Origin: Candidatus Auribacterota bacterium
Lineage (GTDB): Bacteria > Auribacterota > JAFGBW01
Length of the DNA stretch: 15,780 nucleotides
NCBI GenBank assembly: GCA_016932965.1
Contig: JAFGBW010000271.1
Span: 1 to 15,780 of the forward strand
Reading direction: 5' to 3'
A program made the position numbers and the translations under genes. Below the pieces are notes generated by a model. That model saw nothing but the letters and a program-made list of their open reading frames with translations, searched no databases and was not told where the DNA came from. Numbering within the stretch: the first letter of the stretch is position 1; every line of letters begins with the position of its first letter. Positions 2,205 to 13,388 of the stretch are shown one piece after another.

Positions 2205-2233
2205 TTGACAGTAGCTAAGCCTGCCGATATATT
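2205..2233 (+). promoter_or_regulatory. Predicted sigma70-type promoter of the pilus operon
   Basis: A perfect -35 box TTGACA (2205-2210) is followed after exactly 17 bases by TATATT (2228-2233), one mismatch from the consensus -10. Transcription would start near 2240, giving a leader of about 70 nt before the first pilus gene. It is the best promoter match I found in the window and the only good one upstream of 2312. This placement implies that 2312-8787 can be expressed independently of the upstream reductase gene. Confidence 0.7.
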
Positions 2234-2311: not shown

Positions 2312-2950
2312 ATGATTAAGTCAAAAAAAATACGGCAATTCATACTTCTTTTAACCATGATGTCCTTTATTTCACCTTTCTGCGGATTAGCGGCTCCTGT
2401 TCAGAAAAAGATGGAGATTTCGAAGGTGATTTACACGACAAAATCAGGGATGGCAAAATCCATGATGATTGGCGCTTCCACAGGCGGCGGATCGAATAAA
2501 GACTTCCCATGGGGAAAAATCGAAGTGGATTATTCCAGTGTGATGGAGTGGGCGGATGATGTTCAAATCAGAGTGTATGTGCTGTTGTTCAATAAGAATC
2601 AGGATAAAAAGGCACAACAGATGCAGGCTTCTCCTTTTACCATGCTTACTGGTCAGGTTGTGTACTCAAATGTTCCACAGGGCAGGGACAATAAAGCCAT
2701 GTTTTTTATTCATCCTTACGCGCTGAAAAGATATGGGGATATAAAACAGATTCATGTTGAACTTGCGCACAGAGGGCTTGTACAAAGCAAAATGGATCAG
2801 GATTTATCATCCACAAGGGAGAAGAAAGAATGGGATCTCAGGGAGTGGTGGACGCGTGTTCCTCCTTTGAGCGGTCAGATTTTAAATCATACGCAGACGC
2901 CATTTTTATTTGATTCGGATAATCCCTTAACTCTGATTAAATCCACCTGA
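2312..2950 (+). CDS. Exported pilus-associated protein, Amuc_1102-like
   Basis: This is a 212-residue protein of unknown biochemical role. A classic signal peptide occupies residues 1-27 (basic IKSKKIRQ, hydrophobic core, cleavage near LAA). The mature part is mixed beta-rich sequence with segments such as KIEVDYSSVMEWADDVQIRV and no catalytic motif I recognise. It is first in the pilus operon, behind a good ribosome binding site (AAAAAGGAAG, 8 nt before the ATG), and ends 4 nt before the PilM-like gene. Its size, signal peptide and position next to a PilM-like gene match Amuc_1102 of Akkermansia, described as a pilus-locus protein with an immunoglobulin-like fold. The family assignment rests mainly on this context. 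It may be a pilus subunit or a periplasmic accessory factor. Confidence 0.65.
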   Translation: MIKSKKIRQFILLLTMMSFISPFCGLAAPVQKKMEISKVIYTTKSGMAKSMMIGASTGGGSNKDFPWGKIEVDYSSVMEWADDVQIRVYVLLFNKNQDKKAQQMQASPFTMLTGQVVYSNVPQGRDNKAMFFIHPYALKRYGDIKQIHVELAHRGLVQSKMDQDLSSTREKKEWDLREWWTRVPPLSGQILNHTQTPFLFDSDNPLTLIKST

Positions 2951-2954
2951 TTTC

Positions 2955-4604
2955 ATGTTAAAATCGAAAACAGTTCTTGGCATCAATATCGGCACACTCA
3001 CAATCAAGTTAGTGGAAATGGAACGGAGAAAATCCGGACCTGTGATTGTGAATTACGCTGTTGCGCCGATTCCGGATGCTTTTGAACTGAATGAAAGAAA
3101 CGCTGTTGCTGAACGGAATACCCGCATCAGGGACCTCCTGAAAAGCATTTTAAAGGAAAAAAAAATCAAAGGCGAAATGGCGGCCGTTTCTGTTTCAAAC
3201 CAGTCTGTGTTCACCCGTTTCGTCAAAATGCCTTTTTCGGAAAGCAAGAAGCTGGAAAAACTGATCGCCTTTGAAGCCCAGCAGCAGATCCCCTTTCCTT
3301 TAGAAGAGGTGTCCTGGGATTATCAGGTAGTCGGGAATAAGGAGGGCGAGTCTGAAGTCCTGATTGCTGCCATCAAGCAGGATTCCCTGAATGAACAATT
3401 GCAGGTCTTTCAAAATACGCCCATCATTCCTCATATTGTTGATATTGGAGCCATGGCTTTATATTCCGCCCTTTTGCAGGGGCAGATTCAGCCCAATGAA
3501 AGAGTCATCATTCTGGACATCGGGGCCAGTCCCGCCACGCTTCTCATCCATCACCCGGAAGGATACTGGGTCAGAACGCTGCCTTATTCCAGCCTGAGTC
3601 TCACCCAGAGTCTCATGCGTAATTTTGAGTTGTCCTATGAAGAGGCCGAATCGTTGAAATTCAAGGGTTTCATCATGAATGAATCCTCGTTTTCCAGACC
3701 CTCCGATGACATCAATTACAAGATCAACCATTTGATCACCACGGGCGCCAAGAAACTCCATGCGGAAATCACCCGGACGCTGAATTTTTACAAGACACAA
3801 TTCAATGACATTGAATTTGACCGGATCATTTTAGGGGGAGGCGGCTCCCGTCTGGATGATTTAAAAGCATACTTGAGTTCCAAATTCAGGGTCACCGTGG
3901 ATTCGGCATGTCCTCTTCAGGGAATTGAAGTCAGTTCGGATCTCGATACGAAGGAAATCAGCGAGGTGGCCTATCTTTTTTCAGAAGCGGTCGGCCTGGC
4001 TCTTCGTCAGATCGGCGATTGTAAAGTCAAACTCAACCTCATGACTGTCGCGGCGAACGTGGAATCGTCCATCAAGAAATATTTAAAATATTTTTATATT
4101 TTATGCCTCATAGTGGGACTCGGTCTCGGAATGGCCAGTTTTTTTACTTATAACAAACTTCAGGATTTGTCTGCCCGGAAAGATGAGATCATTGATGAAG
4201 ACGCACGGCTTCAGAGTCTGAAAACCAAAATAAAATATGAAGCGGATAACAACGTCAAACTCGAAAGAGAAGCCAGGCTGATTAAAAGCATTTCTAAAAA
4301 TCGGAACAACTGGCTGAGATTTTATCTGAATTTGAATCTCGTGATTCCGCCCGAGATTTATTTATCCGGTTTTTCGACCTATTCTTCTGAAGGAAAGAAA
4401 ATCGAAAAATCATCCTCAAAACAGGTGCTCATATCCGGCATGGCGCCTAATAGGAGCGTCCTGGATAAATTCCAGGAAAAACTGGCCTCTTTGGAATACG
4501 TCCAGAGTGTGGAAATGCCCAAGGCCAATTTTTTACCGGACAGTTCCAATTACATTGACTTCCAGTTTTTGCTGACTCTTAACAACGATCAGGACCCTGA
4601 ATGA
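2955..4604 (+). CDS. Fused PilM-PilN type IV pilus alignment protein (Amuc_1101-like)
   Basis: The 549 residues combine two normally separate alignment-complex parts. Residues 1-355 are a PilM-type actin-like domain. The phosphate loop is VLGINIGTLTIKLVE (7-21), the second phosphate motif is VIILDIGASPATLLI (184-198), and the adenosine motif is IILGGGGSRLDD (291-302). A short KLNL segment (359-362) resembles the PilN leader that docks onto PilM. It is followed by a membrane helix at about 378-399, a coiled coil (about 400-450) and a periplasmic PilN-like domain to the end. The fusion would tether the cytoplasmic ATP-binding ring covalently to the inner membrane. I see no strong ribosome binding site, so translation is probably coupled to the gene ending 4 nt upstream. 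Its stop overlaps the next start (ATGA, 4601-4604). Amuc_1101 of Akkermansia is the closest relative I know of. Confidence 0.87.
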   Translation: MLKSKTVLGINIGTLTIKLVEMERRKSGPVIVNYAVAPIPDAFELNERNAVAERNTRIRDLLKSILKEKKIKGEMAAVSVSNQSVFTRFVKMPFSESKKLEKLIAFEAQQQIPFPLEEVSWDYQVVGNKEGESEVLIAAIKQDSLNEQLQVFQNTPIIPHIVDIGAMALYSALLQGQIQPNERVIILDIGASPATLLIHHPEGYWVRTLPYSSLSLTQSLMRNFELSYEEAESLKFKGFIMNESSFSRPSDDINYKINHLITTGAKKLHAEITRTLNFYKTQFNDIEFDRIILGGGGSRLDDLKAYLSSKFRVTVDSACPLQGIEVSSDLDTKEISEVAYLFSEAVGLALRQIGDCKVKLNLMTVAANVESSIKKYLKYFYILCLIVGLGLGMASFFTYNKLQDLSARKDEIIDEDARLQSLKTKIKYEADNNVKLEREARLIKSISKNRNNWLRFYLNLNLVIPPEIYLSGFSTYSSEGKKIEKSSSKQVLISGMAPNRSVLDKFQEKLASLEYVQSVEMPKANFLPDSSNYIDFQFLLTLNNDQDPE

Positions 4605-5353
4605 ACCAGATAAAAAAATATAAAGTGGCCGTGATACCTTTGATCTGTCTTCTTATCCTCTTGGGGGAATGCGCGGCTTACTTTTCTGTATCCGGCCGGT
4701 ATCAAACCATGTGCAAGCAGGTCGAAGATGCGTTGATTAACTTAAAGACCTATCACAAGGATCCGAAAAGCATTCCCAGTGAGAAACAACTGAAGGAGAT
4801 ACTTGACTACCGGGATGCGCTTCAGAAATTATTCAATCAGACTCTTTATACTTATAAAAGCATGGTCGTTCACGAAACTCCGTTGAAACCATTGGAATTC
4901 AAGGAAAAATTGATCAGCTTGAATGAGAATTACGGAAAATACAAAATACCCATTCAGAGCGGACTGAGTTTCAAAGAATACGTGGGGGCGATTCTTCCAT
5001 CTCCGTCTGCGCTGCCCCAATTGACCCGGCAGCTTTCCTTAGTGACTCAAATCGTGGACCTTTTGATTGAAAACCGGGTGGAAGCCATATCGGAAATAAA
5101 AAGACTGGAAGTCGACAACATAAAAAGCACCCTTTCCGATAAAGTTCTTTTTCAGGTATTTCATCTGGGATTATCCTATAAAATTGACCATAAAAATCTG
5201 CTGTCTTTTTTAAATACCATCACCCTTCTTCCCTCGCTTTGGAAAATCGAAGGTTTGAGCATCAAAAGTAATTATCAGAAAGGGGATTCTTCCATTGAGG
5301 CTCAGCTGCTTACCGTGAATTTGGATCTTTCTTTGACGGAGTATACAGAATGA
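4601..5353 (+). CDS. PilO-like inner-membrane pilus protein (Amuc_1100-like)
   Basis: A 250-residue bitopic protein. A short basic cytoplasmic N-terminus (MNQIKKYK) is followed by one membrane helix at about 9-28, a helical coiled-coil-prone segment to about 80, and a periplasmic C-terminal domain. The segment LPQLTRQLSLVTQIVDLL (about 139-156) and the alternating beta/alpha C-terminus fit the ferredoxin-like fold of PilO/GspM proteins. These form heterodimers with PilN to couple the inner-membrane machine to the secretin. It overlaps both neighbours by ATGA (4601-4604 and 5350-5353), so it is almost certainly co-translated. Amuc_1100 of Akkermansia occupies the equivalent slot. Sequence similarity within this family is weak, so the call rests on topology and context. 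Confidence 0.75.
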   Translation: MNQIKKYKVAVIPLICLLILLGECAAYFSVSGRYQTMCKQVEDALINLKTYHKDPKSIPSEKQLKEILDYRDALQKLFNQTLYTYKSMVVHETPLKPLEFKEKLISLNENYGKYKIPIQSGLSFKEYVGAILPSPSALPQLTRQLSLVTQIVDLLIENRVEAISEIKRLEVDNIKSTLSDKVLFQVFHLGLSYKIDHKNLLSFLNTITLLPSLWKIEGLSIKSNYQKGDSSIEAQLLTVNLDLSLTEYTE

Positions 5354-6372
5354 AATTTTCCTTATCCATTGAGCGGATTCTTCAGGGGGCAGTCGGTATT
5401 GTTTTTTGTATGTGCACCGTATTTGCGTACCGTGCCATTGTTGCCAGTCCCCCTGATACCGCCTGGAACAAGGTGGAATCCAGCTGGCAGGGAAACAAGG
5501 AAGGGGAAAATATGATCAAGGCGCTGGATAAAAATCTGGAGAGAATCAGACAGCCCGAAGTGCTTGTGACAGAAGAAAAAATCAGCAATTTGAGGAATGT
5601 TTTCACCCCCCCATTAGTCAATCCTAATCCTAAAGACTGGTTTTGCGAGGAATGCGGAGGAGCCAACAAAGGGGATATGATGGTCTGCAGGCATTGCGGT
5701 GCCATACGGCCGCCTTCTGAAGATATTGACAGTGATAATGACGGTATGCCTGATTATTGGGAGGTAAAATACGGTTTTGATCCGCAGGATCCGTCCGACG
5801 CCAGTCTGGACGCGGATAATGACGGCAGTTCCAATGTGGAAGAATACAGAAAAGGAACCAATCCCCGCGGAGGATCAGAGCCGGTAGAGCAGTCGCTTCC
5901 GTTTTATCTTGTTAAAACTTATCAGAAACCTATTCAGATCCTTTTCATGGGCTATATTCTTCATCCGGATGGTCATTATGCAATAGAAATCAACTGGGCC
6001 GGAAGAACGGAGTTTTACAAATTAGGTGATGAAGTGAGAGGGTATGAGATCAAGGAATTTAATAAAGTGATTGAGGACAAACCGATGCCAACAGGCGTTA
6101 TACTTTCGGTGGACAAATCATACATTGTATGTCAAAAGAAGAAATTTCCCCCTAAAACTTTTATCAAACAGCAGCTGGTCACGGACAATGATGTTTTTGC
6201 AAAAGTCCGTTTTACCGAAGATCAGGAACCCATAGAAGTTAACATCGATTCGGTGATTGAACCGCCGGGAAGCGGAAAAATGTTTAAAGTGACAGACATA
6301 GGATTAACTCCCCAAAAGATTATTGTTGTCGATGAAACAAAAAAAACATACACTGTCCGTATAGAAAAATAA
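5350..6372 (+). CDS. PilP-position pilus protein with zinc ribbon and calcium-loop repeats (Amuc_1099-like)
   Basis: A 340-residue protein anchored by an N-terminal membrane helix (about 10-31). A linker follows, then a four-cysteine ribbon with Cys at 99, 102, 113 and 116 (CEEC and CRHC). After that come two 12-residue acidic loops of the DxDxDG type, at 127-138 (DSDNDGMPDYWE) and 154-165 (DADNDGSSNVEE), ending in the YRKGTNP signature typical of thrombospondin type-3-like calcium repeats. The C-terminal half (about 184-340) is beta-rich, with YAIEINWAGRTEFYKLGDEV resembling the beta domain of PilP/GspC proteins that contact the secretin. Its place between the PilO-like gene and the secretin supports a linker role. 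The ribbon and calcium loops are unusual for a PilP. Metal binding is inferred from spacing only. Translation is coupled by ATGA overlap. Confidence 0.72.
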   Translation: MKFSLSIERILQGAVGIVFCMCTVFAYRAIVASPPDTAWNKVESSWQGNKEGENMIKALDKNLERIRQPEVLVTEEKISNLRNVFTPPLVNPNPKDWFCEECGGANKGDMMVCRHCGAIRPPSEDIDSDNDGMPDYWEVKYGFDPQDPSDASLDADNDGSSNVEEYRKGTNPRGGSEPVEQSLPFYLVKTYQKPIQILFMGYILHPDGHYAIEINWAGRTEFYKLGDEVRGYEIKEFNKVIEDKPMPTGVILSVDKSYIVCQKKKFPPKTFIKQQLVTDNDVFAKVRFTEDQEPIEVNIDSVIEPPGSGKMFKVTDIGLTPQKIIVVDETKKTYTVRIEK

Positions 6373-6429
6373 ATGTCAAATGGTTATCATATAGTTTTTA
6401 TTAAGTAGTTTATAGAAGAGGAGGAATTC

Positions 6430-8787
6430 ATGCTTAAAGGCACTTTTAAAAAACAAGGAATGGTGGGGATGGCGTTATTCATGCTGTTAGGCTCTCTGGT
6501 GGTGACAGCGGATGAAGCTTCTGATCTGGCAGCGGAAGTCGCCAGCAGAAAAAAGGTCTATGCTGAGGAAAGCAGGATCATAGCCGAGCAGCATTTCAAA
6601 TTGGGAAAAGAATATCTGGATGAAGGGAATTACGACCGGGCGTTAGATGAGTTTAAGACAGTCCTGGAACTGGATCCGAATCACGTCAGCGCAAAAAAAT
6701 ACAGATTGAAAGCCATTGAAGCCATTGCCGGTGTTTCCGGATCAGCAAAAGAGGGGGCCGGGGAAGCGTCGCCATTTTTTGACGTCGCCGGATACAATCC
6801 CCAGGGCGCGTTTCAGGCCTATCAGAGAGGCGTGGATTTTTACAATAAAGGGAATCTGGAAAAAGCCATAAAAGAATTTCATTTGTCGATGCGAATGAAT
6901 CCGCATTATGTTCCGGCGAAACGTTTTATAAACAGGATCCTCTGTAAAGAGAGGGAATCCTTGGCCAGAGATGAAGAGATAGCATTAAAGAAACGGATCA
7001 TTGAAGTGGACCAGGCCTGGCTGCCGCCTGAGAAAGCGGATAAACTCACGATTCGCGGAGCGGTATCCTCTCCCGAGATCATCACGGAAGCAAAAAGAAA
7101 AATGATGCAGGCATCCAAGCAGGTCATTCCGGAAATCAATTTTACACAGGCCCATTTGAGGGATGTTCTTCAATATCTTTCAAAGATAACGGGGGTCAAC
7201 ATCATTTTAGATGAACGGGTGTTTGAAACAGCAGCCATGCCAATGGCACCTGGAGGAGATGCCGGTGGAATGGATGCGGAAAGAGCAGTGATGAGTGCGC
7301 CTCTTTCGGAAACCATCACCATTTCTCTTACCAATATCCCCCTCATAGAAGCCCTGCGTTATATTTTAAAGGTCAAGGGATTGAAATATCGTATTGATGA
7401 TTATGCGATCATGGTATCCACCCCTGAAGGGATCGGCGACGAAGAAATGGAAACCCGCTATTACACTCTGAGTTCCGGTATAGCGGATTTCACGGAATTC
7501 AAATTGAACGAGGATGCCACTAATGTAGGCGGAGTGAAGGCCGGTGGATCCAGCGGAAGCAGCAGCTTCGGAGGGCTGGGAATGTCTTCGCCTGATATGG
7601 AAAAAACGTCTGTCAAAGACATTTTGATGAATTCCGGCGTTCCTTTTCCGCCCGGATCCAATGTGTTCATGGATAGAAGAACAGGAACCCTGATTGTTCA
7701 CAATACGCCGGAGAACCTGGCCATGGTGGAAAAAATTCTGGACATCATCGACAAGCCGCCTTTCCAGGTCAATATCCAGGCCAAATTCATTCACATCAAT
7801 CAGACGGACCTCGATGAACTGGGCTTTGAATGGCTGTTGATGAGTCCGATCCGTGTCGGCACACACAGCCAGATGAATGCAGACGGGACCCAGACCAACC
7901 GTATGCAGATTAATTCGAATTTTCTTAATTCGGGGTATAGCCCGTCCACCTGGGGTGTCACGGATGAATTCGGAGATCCTATCAATCAAGGGGTCTTTTT
8001 AAATAATGCATTAGGCGCTGTAGCCGGTCTGGAGGATCAGTATGCCGGCGCTGTAAGCGGAGTATTGACCAAAGGGGATCAGATGCCCAATTACATTTCT
8101 AACGGCGGGATCCTTTCTTTGTCAGGTATTTTGACGGATCCTCAGTTCAACATGGTCATGCATGCCCTGGATAAAAGCGGAAACGCAGATCTTCTTTCAG
8201 CTCCCCAGGTGACAACCGTGAACAACCAGCAGGCCCAGATCGAGCTGGTCACGGAAATCATTTATCCGGGTAAATATGAAGTGGTTCAGCCGGTTGTATC
8301 AAACGGCACCCAGACCACTCCGGGTTATACGGTTCCGGCTGATTTTATTACAAGAGATGTGGGAGTGATCCTGAATGTAACACCGTCTGTCGGTGCTGAC
8401 AGAAAAACCATCACCCTCACGCTGATTCCTGAAGTCTCCGAATATTTAAGGGACATTGACTGGGGGTATGATCTGCCGGTGGCCGGAAGTACTTTAAAAA
8501 CACATATGTCCATCAAACAGCCGATTTTTAAAACATCGAATGTTTCAACAACGGTGATTGTGAATGACGGGGAAACGATCGTGCTTGGCGGCTTGATTGA
8601 AGAGGCCAAGACAAAAATCCGTGATAAAATTCCCTTTTTGGGCAGTATCCCGCTCCTGGGGCGTTTGTTCAGGCATGATCTGGATGAGACAAGAAAAGTG
8701 AATCTCATGATTTTTGTGACAGCTAAATTGATCACGGCAGACGGAGACGATCTGCATTCGTCCAAGAAAGAGATCGCTCAGGCATAA
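6430..8787 (+). CDS. pilQ: Type IV pilus/type II secretion secretin with TPR N-terminus (PilQ, Amuc_1098-like)
   Basis: The outer-membrane channel of the pilus, 785 residues. The N-terminus is a signal peptide (1-27, cleavage near VTA). Two TPR-like units follow at about 53-91 (LDEGNYDRALDEFKTVLELDP) and 127-172 (FYNKGNLEKAIKEFHLSMRMNP). A secretin N0/STN-type domain spans about 233-331, with a Met/Gly-rich insert at 268-290. A ring-building N1-type domain lies around 415-450, preceded by a Gly/Ser-rich loop at 367-386. The C-terminal secretin domain runs from about 585 to 770 and includes LLSAPQVTTVNNQQAQI, DVGVILNVTP and the hallmark IPFLGSIPLLGRLFR (734-748). AGGAGG at 6419-6424 lies 5 nt before the ATG. 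A 57-bp gap from the previous gene leaves room for separate control. Built-in TPRs are known in the PVC-type secretin family and may replace a separate pilotin. Confidence 0.92.
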   Translation: MLKGTFKKQGMVGMALFMLLGSLVVTADEASDLAAEVASRKKVYAEESRIIAEQHFKLGKEYLDEGNYDRALDEFKTVLELDPNHVSAKKYRLKAIEAIAGVSGSAKEGAGEASPFFDVAGYNPQGAFQAYQRGVDFYNKGNLEKAIKEFHLSMRMNPHYVPAKRFINRILCKERESLARDEEIALKKRIIEVDQAWLPPEKADKLTIRGAVSSPEIITEAKRKMMQASKQVIPEINFTQAHLRDVLQYLSKITGVNIILDERVFETAAMPMAPGGDAGGMDAERAVMSAPLSETITISLTNIPLIEALRYILKVKGLKYRIDDYAIMVSTPEGIGDEEMETRYYTLSSGIADFTEFKLNEDATNVGGVKAGGSSGSSSFGGLGMSSPDMEKTSVKDILMNSGVPFPPGSNVFMDRRTGTLIVHNTPENLAMVEKILDIIDKPPFQVNIQAKFIHINQTDLDELGFEWLLMSPIRVGTHSQMNADGTQTNRMQINSNFLNSGYSPSTWGVTDEFGDPINQGVFLNNALGAVAGLEDQYAGAVSGVLTKGDQMPNYISNGGILSLSGILTDPQFNMVMHALDKSGNADLLSAPQVTTVNNQQAQIELVTEIIYPGKYEVVQPVVSNGTQTTPGYTVPADFITRDVGVILNVTPSVGADRKTITLTLIPEVSEYLRDIDWGYDLPVAGSTLKTHMSIKQPIFKTSNVSTTVIVNDGETIVLGGLIEEAKTKIRDKIPFLGSIPLLGRLFRHDLDETRKVNLMIFVTAKLITADGDDLHSSKKEIAQA

Positions 8788-9053: not shown

Positions 9054-9665
9054 TTGAACGTTGGCGTCACAGGCGGTTTTTCAAGCGGGAAAAGCACATT
9101 TGCTTTTCTGCTTTCAAAAAAATTGAAATATCATTTTTTTTCATGTGATGATTTCATCAAGGGACTTTATAAAAAAAAGACGCTTCGAAAAATAATGATA
9201 GACAAGTTCGGGCATCAACTGTATAAAAGGGGCATCTTACAAAAAAGACTTTTATCTGAATTGGTTTTTAATTCAGAAGAATCTCTTCGCAAACTAGAAT
9301 CTATCATACATCCAATAGTTGAATCTGAAATAAAAAAACGAGTAACATCTGTTCCAGCAAACACGGTTTTTGAAATCCCTCTTTTATATGAAAAAAATTA
9401 TCAAACTCTGATGGATTTATGTGTGTTGGTTGTTTGCAATCGGGAGAAACAGCTTGAGAGGGCATTGAATCGTGGATTCTCAAAAAAAGAATTCAACCGG
9501 AGAATCCGTTTTCAGCTGAGTGATAGAGATAAAATAAAAAGAGAACCTGTTGTCGTCATGAATAATGATTCCATACATGATCTGAAACAAGAAGTACTGA
9601 GGGTAACGAATCTGATCTTACCCATTAAAAAATCCAGCCGGGTACAACGAACGAAAGGAAAATAA
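9054..9665 (+). CDS. coaE: Dephospho-CoA kinase
   Basis: Catalyses the last step of coenzyme A synthesis, phosphorylating dephospho-CoA at the 3' hydroxyl with ATP, in the cytoplasm. The 203 residues fit the family length. The P-loop GGFSSGKS is at 7-14, an acidic CDD pair at 31-33 fits the substrate/metal site, IIHP is at 84-87, EIPLLYE at 107-113, and a lid/C-terminal region contains [15 protein letters not shown] and VVMNND. The start must be the TTG at 9054, because a TAG lies in frame at 9033-9035 and no ATG or GTG falls between. The gene is markedly AT-rich: bases 9121-9180 have 13 G/C in 60, against 33 in 60 in a matching stretch of rho. Rho starts 4 nt after its stop, so they form one unit. 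As I recall, Chlamydiae also have coaE next to rho. Confidence 0.9.
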
Positions 9666-9669
9666 AAAG

Positions 9670-11403
9670 ATGGTAAAAAACATCAGTGAAGAGGAATTCT
9701 CTGCAATGGCTACAGAACCGGGCACGTTAGATATGGACCACTCCAAATCTCCCCGCCTAATGTCTTCCCAAACTATAACGCCCAGACGCAATCCGGGGAA
9801 GAATGCAAAAGAAGAAATCAACAATGAACCTGAATTGATTCCAATCGATCAGAAGGCAGATCATGGAAAAGCAGTTCCTGAAAAAGATCAACAACCGGAA
9901 AAAAACGGAGAGAACATGAGAAAAGAAAGTTATTCCAAACGAGGGAGAAACGGCGGCAACTATCGGTCTTCCATTTATCGTCCCCGGCATAAAGAAAATA
10001 TGGGCTATTCGAGAGACCATGCTTTTAAATCCGATGATTCTATTGCTAATAATGGAGGACAGGAAAACGGCGGGAGGAGACCATCCAGGAGTGATCGTTC
10101 CTATGACGACACCCCTGCTGATGCCTATGAATTAAAATTGAAAGGCGATGAGCAAATCATCAATATCAATGACCTGCAGAAGCTGAATATCGTGGATTTG
10201 ACCGAGGAAGCAAGAAAAATCGGTTTGGAAAGCATTGCGGGGAAAAAGAGACAGGAAATCATTTTCAGTATATTAAAGGCTTATGGGGATAAGGAAGCCA
10301 TCATGATGGCTGAAGGCGTGTTGGAGATCCTCCCGGATGGTTTCGGTTTTCTGAGGACACCCCAGTATAATTATCTTCCCTGTCCGGAAGACATTTATGT
10401 TTCACCGGCCCAGATAAGAAAATTCGAAATCCGGACCGGTGATACCATTCGCGGGCAGATCCGGCCGCCCAAGGATAAGGAGCGCTATTTTGCTCTCGTG
10501 AAAGTGGAAAGCATCAATTCAGATCCTCCTGAAAAGGTCAGGATGCGTATTTCTTTTGATAATTTGACGCCGTATTATCCGCAAAAACGTTTCATTCTGG
10601 AATATCCTCAGAGTCCCATTTCAATGAGGGTGATGGACTTGATGACTCCGATCGGCAAAGGTCAAAGGGGATTGATTGTGGCGCCTCCCAGAACGGGGAA
10701 AACCGTTCTCATGCAGCAGATTGCGAATTCGATCACCATGAACAATCCGGATGTGCATTTATTTGTGCTCCTCATTGATGAGCGTCCGGAAGAGGTAACG
10801 GATATGGAGCGTACCGTTAAAGGGGAAGTGGTCAGCTCCACTTTTGATGAACCCGCTGAAAGGCATATTCAAGTCGCGGAAATTGTGATCGAAAAAGCCA
10901 GACGTCTCGTTGAGCATAATCAGGACGTGGTGATTTTATTGGATTCCATCACTCGTCTTGCCCGTGCCTACAATTCTGTCCAGCCCGCTTCAGGAAAAAT
11001 TCTCTCCGGAGGAGTGGACGCCAATGCCCTGCAGAAACCCAAGCGTTTTTTTGGTTCAGCCAGAAATATCGAGGGCGGAGGGTCATTGACCATCATTGCC
11101 ACTGCCCTGGTGGATACGGGGTCTCGAATGGATGATGTCATTTTTGAAGAATTCAAGGGCACGGGAAACATGGAGATCGCCCTGGACAGAAGACTCATGG
11201 ATAAACGTATTTTTCCCACCATGGACATAGAGCGTTCCGGCACCAGAAAAGAAGAGCTTCTTCTTCATCCTGATGAACTGGCTAAAGTCTGGATTTTAAG
11301 AAAAGCATTGAGCGGAATGGATCTGGTGGAAGTGATGGAAAAAGTCACGGAAAGAATGAAGAAAAGTAACTCCAATGCGGAGTTTTTATTATCGTTAAAA
11401 TGA
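9670..11403 (+). CDS. rho: Transcription termination factor Rho with a disordered N-terminal insert
   Basis: A hexameric RNA helicase that ends transcription of untranslated RNA. It has 577 residues against about 420 in E. coli. Residues 20-150 are low-complexity and rich in Asn, Arg, Gly, Ser and charged residues ([21 protein letters not shown]). The canonical protein begins at about 163 ([18 protein letters not shown], the Rho N-terminal helix bundle). The RNA-binding cold-shock domain has DGFGFLRTP (223-231). The Walker A motif is APPRTGKT (338-345), Walker B is [16 protein letters not shown] (420-435), and the Q and R loops are in [13 protein letters not shown] (445-457) and [11 protein letters not shown] (493-503). 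The P-loop has Arg where E. coli has Lys181. AAAGGAAAA precedes the ATG by about 8 nt. The stop overlaps the next start (ATGA, 11400-11403). Confidence 0.96.
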
Positions 11404-12491: not shown

Positions 12492-12511
12492 CACAGGAAA
12501 TTTTTCCTGTG
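12492..12511 (+). promoter_or_regulatory. Hairpin covering the start codon of the first pseudopilin gene
   Basis: CACAGGAA (12492-12499) pairs perfectly with TTCCTGTG (12504-12511) across a 4-nt ATTT loop. The left arm contains the only ribosome-binding-site-like sequence (AGGAA) and the right arm contains the GTG start codon (12509-12511). In the folded mRNA both would be hidden, so translation would depend on opening the helix. The helix is seen directly. A regulatory role is inference. Confidence 0.5.
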
Positions 12512-12886
12512 AAAAGGGAATGGATAGTCAAAATAAAACGCGGTTTTTCGTTTCTGGAAATGATGGGGGTGATTTTATTATTGAGCGGCGGTCTGTTCAT
12601 GGTTTTTCCTGTGATCCAGACGATTCAATCCAGTCAAGGTGATCTCTTTTTTCATTTTAAGGCTTTGAAGATTGCTGAAAATCATCTCATGGAACTTCTG
12701 GAAAACTCAATCCCTGCGGCCGGGGAATCAGAGAAAACCGTAGCAGACAGCGATAAAACATATCACTTATTCTGTTCCGTCTGTGCTGAACAAACAGGGG
12801 GAAGGCAGATTCATGTAAAGGTCAAATATGTTACGGGGAAAAATCATGAAACAGCGGTCTTTTTGTCCACTTTTGTTTACCCGTAG
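12509..12886 (+). CDS. Minor pseudopilin, GspI/PilV-like
   Basis: A 125-residue type IV pilin-like protein. A short basic leader (KREWIVKIKRG) ends in the prepilin peptidase site G12|F13, giving GFSFLEMM with the conserved Glu at +5 (E17) and a hydrophobic helix at about 13-36. The segment KALKIAENHLMELLE (about 49-63) resembles the GspI/PilV signature of minor pseudopilins, which sit at the fibre tip and help start assembly. The C-terminal part is short and has two cysteines (SVCAE and the preceding FC). I use the GTG at 12509. The ATG at 12520 is out of frame, and the first in-frame ATG lies inside the membrane helix. The gene overlaps the next one by 41 nt. Confidence 0.72.
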   Translation: MKREWIVKIKRGFSFLEMMGVILLLSGGLFMVFPVIQTIQSSQGDLFFHFKALKIAENHLMELLENSIPAAGESEKTVADSDKTYHLFCSVCAEQTGGRQIHVKVKYVTGKNHETAVFLSTFVYP

Positions 12887-13388
12887 TCAAAAGGGCTTTA
12901 CCCTGATGGAAGTTCTTTTGACGTCGTTTCTCATCACGTATGTGATCGTTTCCACGGTAGAGACTTTTCTTTTCATTTCCCGTGTATTGGAGTATGCCAG
13001 GTCAGAGAGGGAGTTCCTTCATCAGATCATCCTGACGGATCAGATGCTGAAAAATGTCGTTCTTTCTTCCACGAGGATCGGGCCGGGTTCCGACGGATCG
13101 GGCATCCATATTTCTGGTCATAAAAATCATCTGTTATCTTTGGATAAAAAGAGCGCCCCCCCATTTTCCTTTTCTTTATTATTGAGCGAATGGGACGGCA
13201 AACAACAAAATCATCATGCGGGAAGGCTTCTTCTATCCGGGCTTAAAACAGGTGAGACGAGAATCAAAGCAGATTCAAGCGGCCGGCATGTTTCCTGTTA
13301 TTTTGTACATCAAAATGATTTCTCTTTTCGTCTGAATTATGCATTGCTTCCCTTATTTCAGGATATCCGCTGGAGGAGGATCCGATGA
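12846..13388 (+). CDS. Minor pseudopilin, GspJ/PilW-like
   Basis: A protein of about 180 residues with a type III signal. The leader MKQRSFCPLLFTRSQKG is cut at G17|F18, giving GFTLMEVLL with Glu at +5 (E22), then a membrane helix to about residue 42. A beta-rich domain follows, as in GspJ/PilW minor pseudopilins. I place the start at the ATG of 12846, which has GGGGA about 6-10 nt upstream. The earlier in-frame ATG at 12828 would only add six residues. The gene begins inside the previous pseudopilin gene and ends with ATGA shared with the next, so the three are translationally linked. There is no major pilin nearby, so the pair probably primes or caps a fibre encoded elsewhere. Confidence 0.7.
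   Translation: MKQRSFCPLLFTRSQKGFTLMEVLLTSFLITYVIVSTVETFLFISRVLEYARSEREFLHQIILTDQMLKNVVLSSTRIGPGSDGSGIHISGHKNHLLSLDKKSAPPFSFSLLLSEWDGKQQNHHAGRLLLSGLKTGETRIKADSSGRHVSCYFVHQNDFSFRLNYALLPLFQDIRWRRIR

Follow-up and report, generated by a model that had tools for sequence, protein, structure and literature searches.

The closest described counterpart of the locus analyzed here is the Amuc_1098–1102 gene cluster of Akkermansia muciniphila, also designated MUL2, in which five protein families are encoded in one order (PMC5332112, PMC13174399). In Akkermansia, mucin transport and processing are reportedly mediated by MUL2 (PMC13174399), the Akkermansiaceae MUL2 locus has genes for dephospho-CoA kinase and rho as its neighbours (PMC13174399), and in these two papers conservation of the cluster is described within Verrucomicrobiota only (PMC5332112, PMC13174399). 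The cluster includes the much-studied Amuc_1100, while two of its parts, 1099 among those so listed, have been described as uncharacterised. Two further systems share individual components with the locus, i.e., the type IVa pilus (PilMNOPQ, PilB, PilT and PilC) and the type II secretion system (GspC-D-E-F-G-H-I-J-K-L-M). According to a published classification, PilT is a component of the type IVa pilus that was lost in type II secretion (PMC6668835).

The DNA under study, hereafter the window, is a stretch of 15,780 nucleotides from a draft genome of Candidatus Auribacterota. Our literature search found no paper that ties Auribacterota to type IV pili, and no experiment in this lineage.

Gene layout and flanking signals

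Positions 2312–8787 of the window hold five minimally spaced same-strand ORFs in one tightly coupled run: the first two are 4 nt apart, the next two junctions are 4-nt overlaps, and 57 nt separate the last two (Table 1). These ORFs are the five-gene block that a first-pass annotation had delineated, and the families it had proposed are borne out by profile, fold and synteny. The same annotation credited the block with a strong promoter of its own and with a stem-loop at its end, of which each was upheld in part. A putative sigma-70-like promoter does precede the first gene, and when the 413-nt upstream region was shuffled (first order), 0.3% of the trials gave an equally good match, although the word ‘strong’ reflects a sequence match only. 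The stem-loop is likewise real and occurs as a single copy in the whole genome, but its T-run is confined to the minus strand, the coding strand having none, and it is therefore no textbook terminator for the block operon. As had been noted, no motor ATPase, platform protein or major pilin is located beside the block; prepilin-like genes are encountered only 3.7 kb downstream, where two of them may specify pilins of the block system and are regarded as candidates only.

Table 1. Features of the block and of its surroundings, in coordinates of the window
Feature	Position	Strand	Length	Remarks
Sigma-70-like promoter, TTGACA-17-TATATT	2205-2233	+		Putative, sequence match; 11/12 consensus positions; 78 nt before first start codon
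Amuc_1102-like ORF	2312-2950	+	212 aa	
PilM-PilN fusion ORF (Amuc_1101/MUL2B-like)	2955-4604	+	549 aa	
Amuc_1100-like ORF	4601-5353	+	250 aa	
Amuc_1099-like ORF	5350-6372	+	340 aa	
Amuc_1098-like secretin ORF	6430-8787	+	785 aa	
Stem-loop	8799-8844	.	20 bp	3' of secretin gene
coaE (dephospho-CoA kinase)	9054-9665	+		Conserved block neighbour; identified by sequence
rho (transcription termination factor)	9670-11403	+		Conserved block neighbour; identified by sequence
Prepilin-like gene, GspI-like by eye	12509-12886	+		PilD-type N-terminus GFSFLEM; weak N_methyl and ComGE matches
Prepilin-like gene, GspJ-like by eye	12828-13388	+		GFTLMEV; TIGR02532 16.3 bits, at cut-off

Just upstream of the promoter, positions 1877–2100 form an element of 224 bp whose 40-nt terminal inverted repeats are 83% complementary. 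Its end motif, CTTCGTGTCCTTCGTGGT, is found in 27 copies in the genome when up to one mismatch is allowed, against 0 in the reversed control, and several of the copies form inverted pairs 120–220 bp apart, which suggests that the element is MITE-like.

Family assignment of the five products

Searches with the NCBIfam models, which the first-pass annotation had put forward as one way to check its proposal, returned a match to the corresponding family for each of the five products (E-values from 7e-6 to 9e-108), yet every score lay below the curated cut-off: 25.7 bits against 55 for Amuc_1102 (E 7e-6), 306 against 650 for Amuc_1101 (E 5e-91), 36 against 180 for Amuc_1100 (E 4e-9), 29 against 50 for Amuc_1099 (E 6e-7) and 361 against 750 for Amuc_1098 (E 9e-108). 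For the 1099 product, only residues 131–173, a calcium-motif-like stretch, were aligned, and the Amuc_1099 model ranked second to a generic TSP3-type match. Judged by sequence, the five block proteins are homologues of the Amuc families, not NCBIfam equivalogs.

The homology of the small proteins was settled by means of family profiles, each built from 14–15 relatives. Searched against the PDB, the 1102 profile retrieved the solved Amuc_1102 structure (7dsz; E 4.6e-8), while the 1100 profile retrieved the Amuc_1100 structures 6kny and 6lad (E 1.8e-11), with PilO structures far behind; a single 1100-like sequence had returned nothing relevant from the same database. The small proteins thus do match the Amuc families, a lack of which the first-pass annotation had named as grounds for abandoning its proposal.

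The AlphaFold model of the 1102 product (pLDDT 84) aligns to 7dsz with a Z-score of 15.5 over 158 residues (Foldseek E 8.6e-8), and as modelled the protein encoded by 2312–2950 is an exported, Amuc_1102/MUL2A-like protein with an Ig-like fold. Foldseek also related this model to the Ig-like domains of glycosidases, a resemblance which was taken to reflect the common Ig-like fold and not function.

The second product scores 187.6 bits against the TIGR01175 pilM model, i.e., above the cut-off of 133, while its cytoplasmic domain hardly matches T2SSL. An NLLP-like motif of the PilN type (LNLMT, residue 360) directly follows the PilM part and is succeeded by one predicted transmembrane (TM) stretch, indicating that PilM and PilN are fused. 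Elsewhere, this genome encodes a third PilM-N-like protein, which is highly divergent and has the start of a secretin-like gene downstream of it (L112, contig C10, 3960–5609).

The product of 4601–5353 is, on the strength of its profile match, assigned as a PilO/GspM-like inner-membrane protein of the Amuc_1100 type. This homology implies that Amuc_1100 itself would serve in alignment at the inner membrane, a role that agrees poorly with accounts of it as part of the pilus fibre.

The secretin consists of a signal peptide, N-terminal TPRs (residues 52–160), an N0/STN domain, one Secretin_N domain and the secretin domain proper (579–768), with Pfam matches to Secretin (4e-40), TPR_2, STN and Secretin_N; the domain search found no AMIN domain in this protein. 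The fused TPRs resemble pilotin-type proteins (PilW/Tgl), and a pilotin may therefore be built in. In Omnitrophota loci (among L136, L138, L160 and L168) and in L163, three tandem secretin-like ORFs, mostly of ~350–380 aa, replace the single secretin gene.

The 1099 product as a predicted link to the secretin

The 1099 product is composed of an N-terminal TM helix, a Cys4 zinc ribbon (approximately residues 94–120), a TSP3/DxDxDG motif (127–170), a predicted HR domain (194–275) and a C-terminal beta domain (281–340). Its sequence gave chance matches only against the PDB, and its AlphaFold model (pLDDT 86.6) gave no significant E-value in Foldseek; it was a second structural aligner that ranked HR domains clearly, residues 194–275 matching those of GspC (3oss, Z 9.0) and PilP (2y4y, Z 8.3; 2lc4, Z 8.2), with the next unrelated structure at 4.9. 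The PilP scores lie within one Z unit of the GspC score. The protein has no lipobox, and no PDZ domain was found in it; it is a TM-anchored putative HR protein at the PilP position, a label which the first-pass annotation had applied from gene order and which the predicted HR domain now backs. The HR-domain match leads us to predict that 1099 is the PilP/GspC equivalent, linking the inner membrane to the outer-membrane secretin, and this family is thereby given a concrete predicted role.

The zinc ribbon, of the RanBP type and adjoining the TSP3-like calcium motif, is part of a predicted periplasmic protein; a CxxC...CxxC pattern is present in nine of fifteen aligned Auribacterota sequences. 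The 1099 proteins of family f4 (L094, 6467–8071; L096, 6213–7817) are interrupted within the HR region by a long insert which by eye resembles ComEA-type helix-hairpin-helix repeats.

Synteny and origin of the block

Of 80 named loci, which almost without exception are labelled as PVC bacteria, 46 keep the order PilMN-1100-1099-secretin and 24 of these have 1102 in first place; the block order is kept in closer relatives as well. A polA-type exonuclease, coaE or rho gene lies 3' of the block in 22 of the 28 loci with enough downstream DNA. In the window, the order 1102-PilM-like-1100-1099-secretin is followed by coaE and rho as in the published Akkermansia locus, and the block is therefore most likely the same locus, i.e., MUL2. 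In the PilM tree, furthermore, the block PilMs of all PVC phyla sampled group together (98/98) and exclude the standard PilM that contig C127 of this genome encodes; on this tree we reject the standard pilMNOPQ origin, which the first-pass annotation had named as the other way in which its proposal could fail. The simplest reading is vertical inheritance of one old locus, the sequence comparisons indicating that the block is most likely Amuc_1098–1102 as passed down in Candidatus Auribacterota, a further phylum of the PVC group. Apart from its occurrence in a different phylum, the block differs from MUL2 of Akkermansia in that its five proteins score under the NCBIfam cut-offs and its 1099 bears the Cys4 zinc ribbon, whereas gene order, the two neighbouring genes and the fold of 1102 agree. 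The known range of the locus is thus extended to a second phylum, in which its synteny is retained.

Motor, platform and pilin genes

The genome search for pilB, pilT and pilC suggested by the first-pass annotation identified four long PilB/GspE-like ATPases (in addition to the 3' end of a PilB gene on contig C8), one TadA and five PilT-like ATPases, five single-chain platform proteins, five secretins, two prepilin peptidases and ~30 prepilins. Contig C8 reads PilB (3' end)-PilT-PilB-PilC, and this module is the probable match of the block. Its PilT scores 452 bits (pilT cut-off 319) and carries AIQNLIRE; the strict AIRNLIRE pattern is absent from it. Block and module are on separate contigs; linkage is not visible here because the genome is a draft with short contigs.

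Such linkage is apparent in relatives. The PilB-PilT-PilB-PilC module directly precedes the block in G006 and L163, a PilC gene lies 0.7 kb before 1102 in L153, PilC-PilB is found just downstream of the block in L124, and PilT is divergent to 1102 in L122. The C8 PilB forms a clade with the block-adjacent PilBs of G006 and L163 (100/100), and the C8 PilC a clade with all block-linked PilCs (99/99), none of which groups with other sets. In both trees C8 groups with a genome of the same order (G001), which speaks against contamination. Among 44 genomes of the phylum Auribacterota, a C8-type PilC (599 bits or more) is present in all 14 that carry a clear 1102 gene as opposed to 2 of the other 30 (Fisher p 1e-9, shared ancestry being ignored); five of the 14 had contributed to the PilC profile, and the other nine alone give p 2.6e-7. 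One of the two exceptions, G015, does possess the block, though without a recognised 1102. On one contig and one strand, this genome encodes PilB-PilT-PilB-PilC, five prepilins (GspG-, G-, H-, I- and J-like), a GspK-like protein of 881 aa (NF037980, E 1.9e-18), PilMN, 1100, 1099 and the secretin. The block motor and platform are accordingly most likely encoded by the C8 module, the nomination of which, with its retraction ATPase, turns ‘pilus or secretion?’ into a question about particular genes.

In G007, G014 and G021 the module is likewise followed by pilins of this kind, and a GspK-like gene precedes the PilM-N gene in G015 and G022, the GspK-like proteins of G015, G007 and G022 all scoring below cut-off. 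No GspK-like protein was found within the window, and BLAST searches of this genome with the G/H/I/J/K-like pilins of relatives returned several weak candidates (C280, C202 and C141) and no clear orthologue set. The H/I/J/K-like pilins of relatives also weakly match proteins D, B, C and A of the Verru_Chthon cassette (TIGR02596/02598/02599/02600), but all of these matches are far below cut-off, and no such cassette was found in the window itself. Separately from this system, the phylum has another type IVa pilus, of the standard kind, encoded on G006 contig C56 as PilB-PilC-(sensor, regulator)-pilin-PilM-N-O, with counterparts here on C9, C127 and C7. A separate, GspG-bearing and type II secretion-like cluster is found on C141.

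Proposed machine and alternative readings

From the homology, gene order, synteny, phylogeny, co-occurrence and predicted folds that the computation yielded, we infer the assembly of these parts into one machine, its retraction and its cargo. The reading which we consider probable is that this cross-phylum MUL2 counterpart encodes those components of a type IV filament machine that span the envelope, the C8 motor most likely driving the machine by extending and retracting a GspG–K-like filament. The PilM-PilN fusion and the PilO-like protein would form a cytoplasmic and inner-membrane ring, the HR-domain protein 1099 should dock on the secretin, the secretin would act as the channel, and the Ig-like 1102 would be an exported accessory. 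Driven by PilB, a thin filament made up of GspG/H/I/J/K-like pilins would grow out through the secretin; with its retraction by PilT, the machine would bind extracellular material and pull it in rather than only export protein. This uptake function is proposed on the basis of the parts list and of what has been reported on mucin transport by MUL2.

The best reading is, then, a retractable machine that mixes features of the type IVa pilus and of type II secretion. With the former it shares the PilM-like actin fold, a PilO-like protein, a predicted HR domain as in PilP, a secretin and, in the probable C8 module, PilT, but it lacks the separate PilM and PilN and the lipoprotein PilP by which that pilus is defined, its secretin differs in that no AMIN domain was found, and it has the Ig-like 1102 and, in relatives, a GspK-like pilin in addition. 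With the latter it shares a GspL-like fusion, the GspC-like topology of 1099 with its predicted HR domain and, in one relative, G-H-I-J-K-like pilins before the L-like gene, but it differs in the retraction ATPase PilT of the module, in the PilM-type cytoplasmic domain and in a 1099 in which no PDZ domain was found. As it fits neither definition fully, the system is filed as neither.

The alternative that survives best, albeit an unlikely one, is a type II secretion system proper, in which PilM-N would be GspL, 1100 GspM, 1099 GspC and the secretin GspD, a short pseudopilus would pump proteins out, and the nearby PilT would serve another pilus. GspL is itself a fusion of PilM- and PilN-like parts, and the classical gene order of these systems is G-H-I-J-K-L-M, to which the GspK-like gene ahead of PilM-N in two relatives conforms; that pilin and the GspL-like fusion point to secretion rather than to a long pilus, and the TM helix and predicted HR domain of 1099 resemble those of GspC. 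Against this, all members examined have PilT within their PilB-PilT-PilB-PilC module, and in G006, L163 and G015 it belongs to a contiguous locus that includes the block. Moreover, the cytoplasmic domain is recognised as PilM and hardly as T2SSL, the secretin shows one Secretin_N domain, and the C141 cluster already provides this genome with a type II secretion-like set.

It is quite improbable that the block is served by another motor and platform set (C9, C135, C239 or C50) and that the C8 module belongs elsewhere. The genome does hold several unlinked sets and other secretins, between which cross-use is conceivable, but C9-type PilB and PilC are linked to a standard PilM-N-O in G006, the counterpart of which is C127 here, no block-linked PilC groups with the other sets, and the co-occurrence favours C8. 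That the block is an ordinary pilMNOPQ cluster of a type IVa pilus is scarcely credible, for although PilM exceeds the TIGR01175 cut-off and the associated module includes PilT, the block has a PilM-PilN fusion, a TM helix with extra domains instead of a lipobox at the PilP position and an additional Amuc_1102 gene, and the PilM tree sets it apart.

Returning to the retractable machine, a broader reading is possible, although we lean against it: the PVC superphylum may harbour an ancient, vertically inherited class of filament, distinct from both the type IVa pilus and the type II secretion system and characterized by PilB-PilT-PilB-PilC, GspG–K-like pilins, a fusion of PilM and PilN resembling GspL and an Ig-like 1102, which would pull polysaccharides to or through the secretin, mucin uptake by Akkermansia being one specialised use.

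Elsewhere in this genome (L048, contig C239, 11133–19998), a PilB-PilC pair shares a single run with genes that by eye are CheA-, CheB-, CheW-, CheY- and CheR-like, which suggests a chemosensory-controlled filament.
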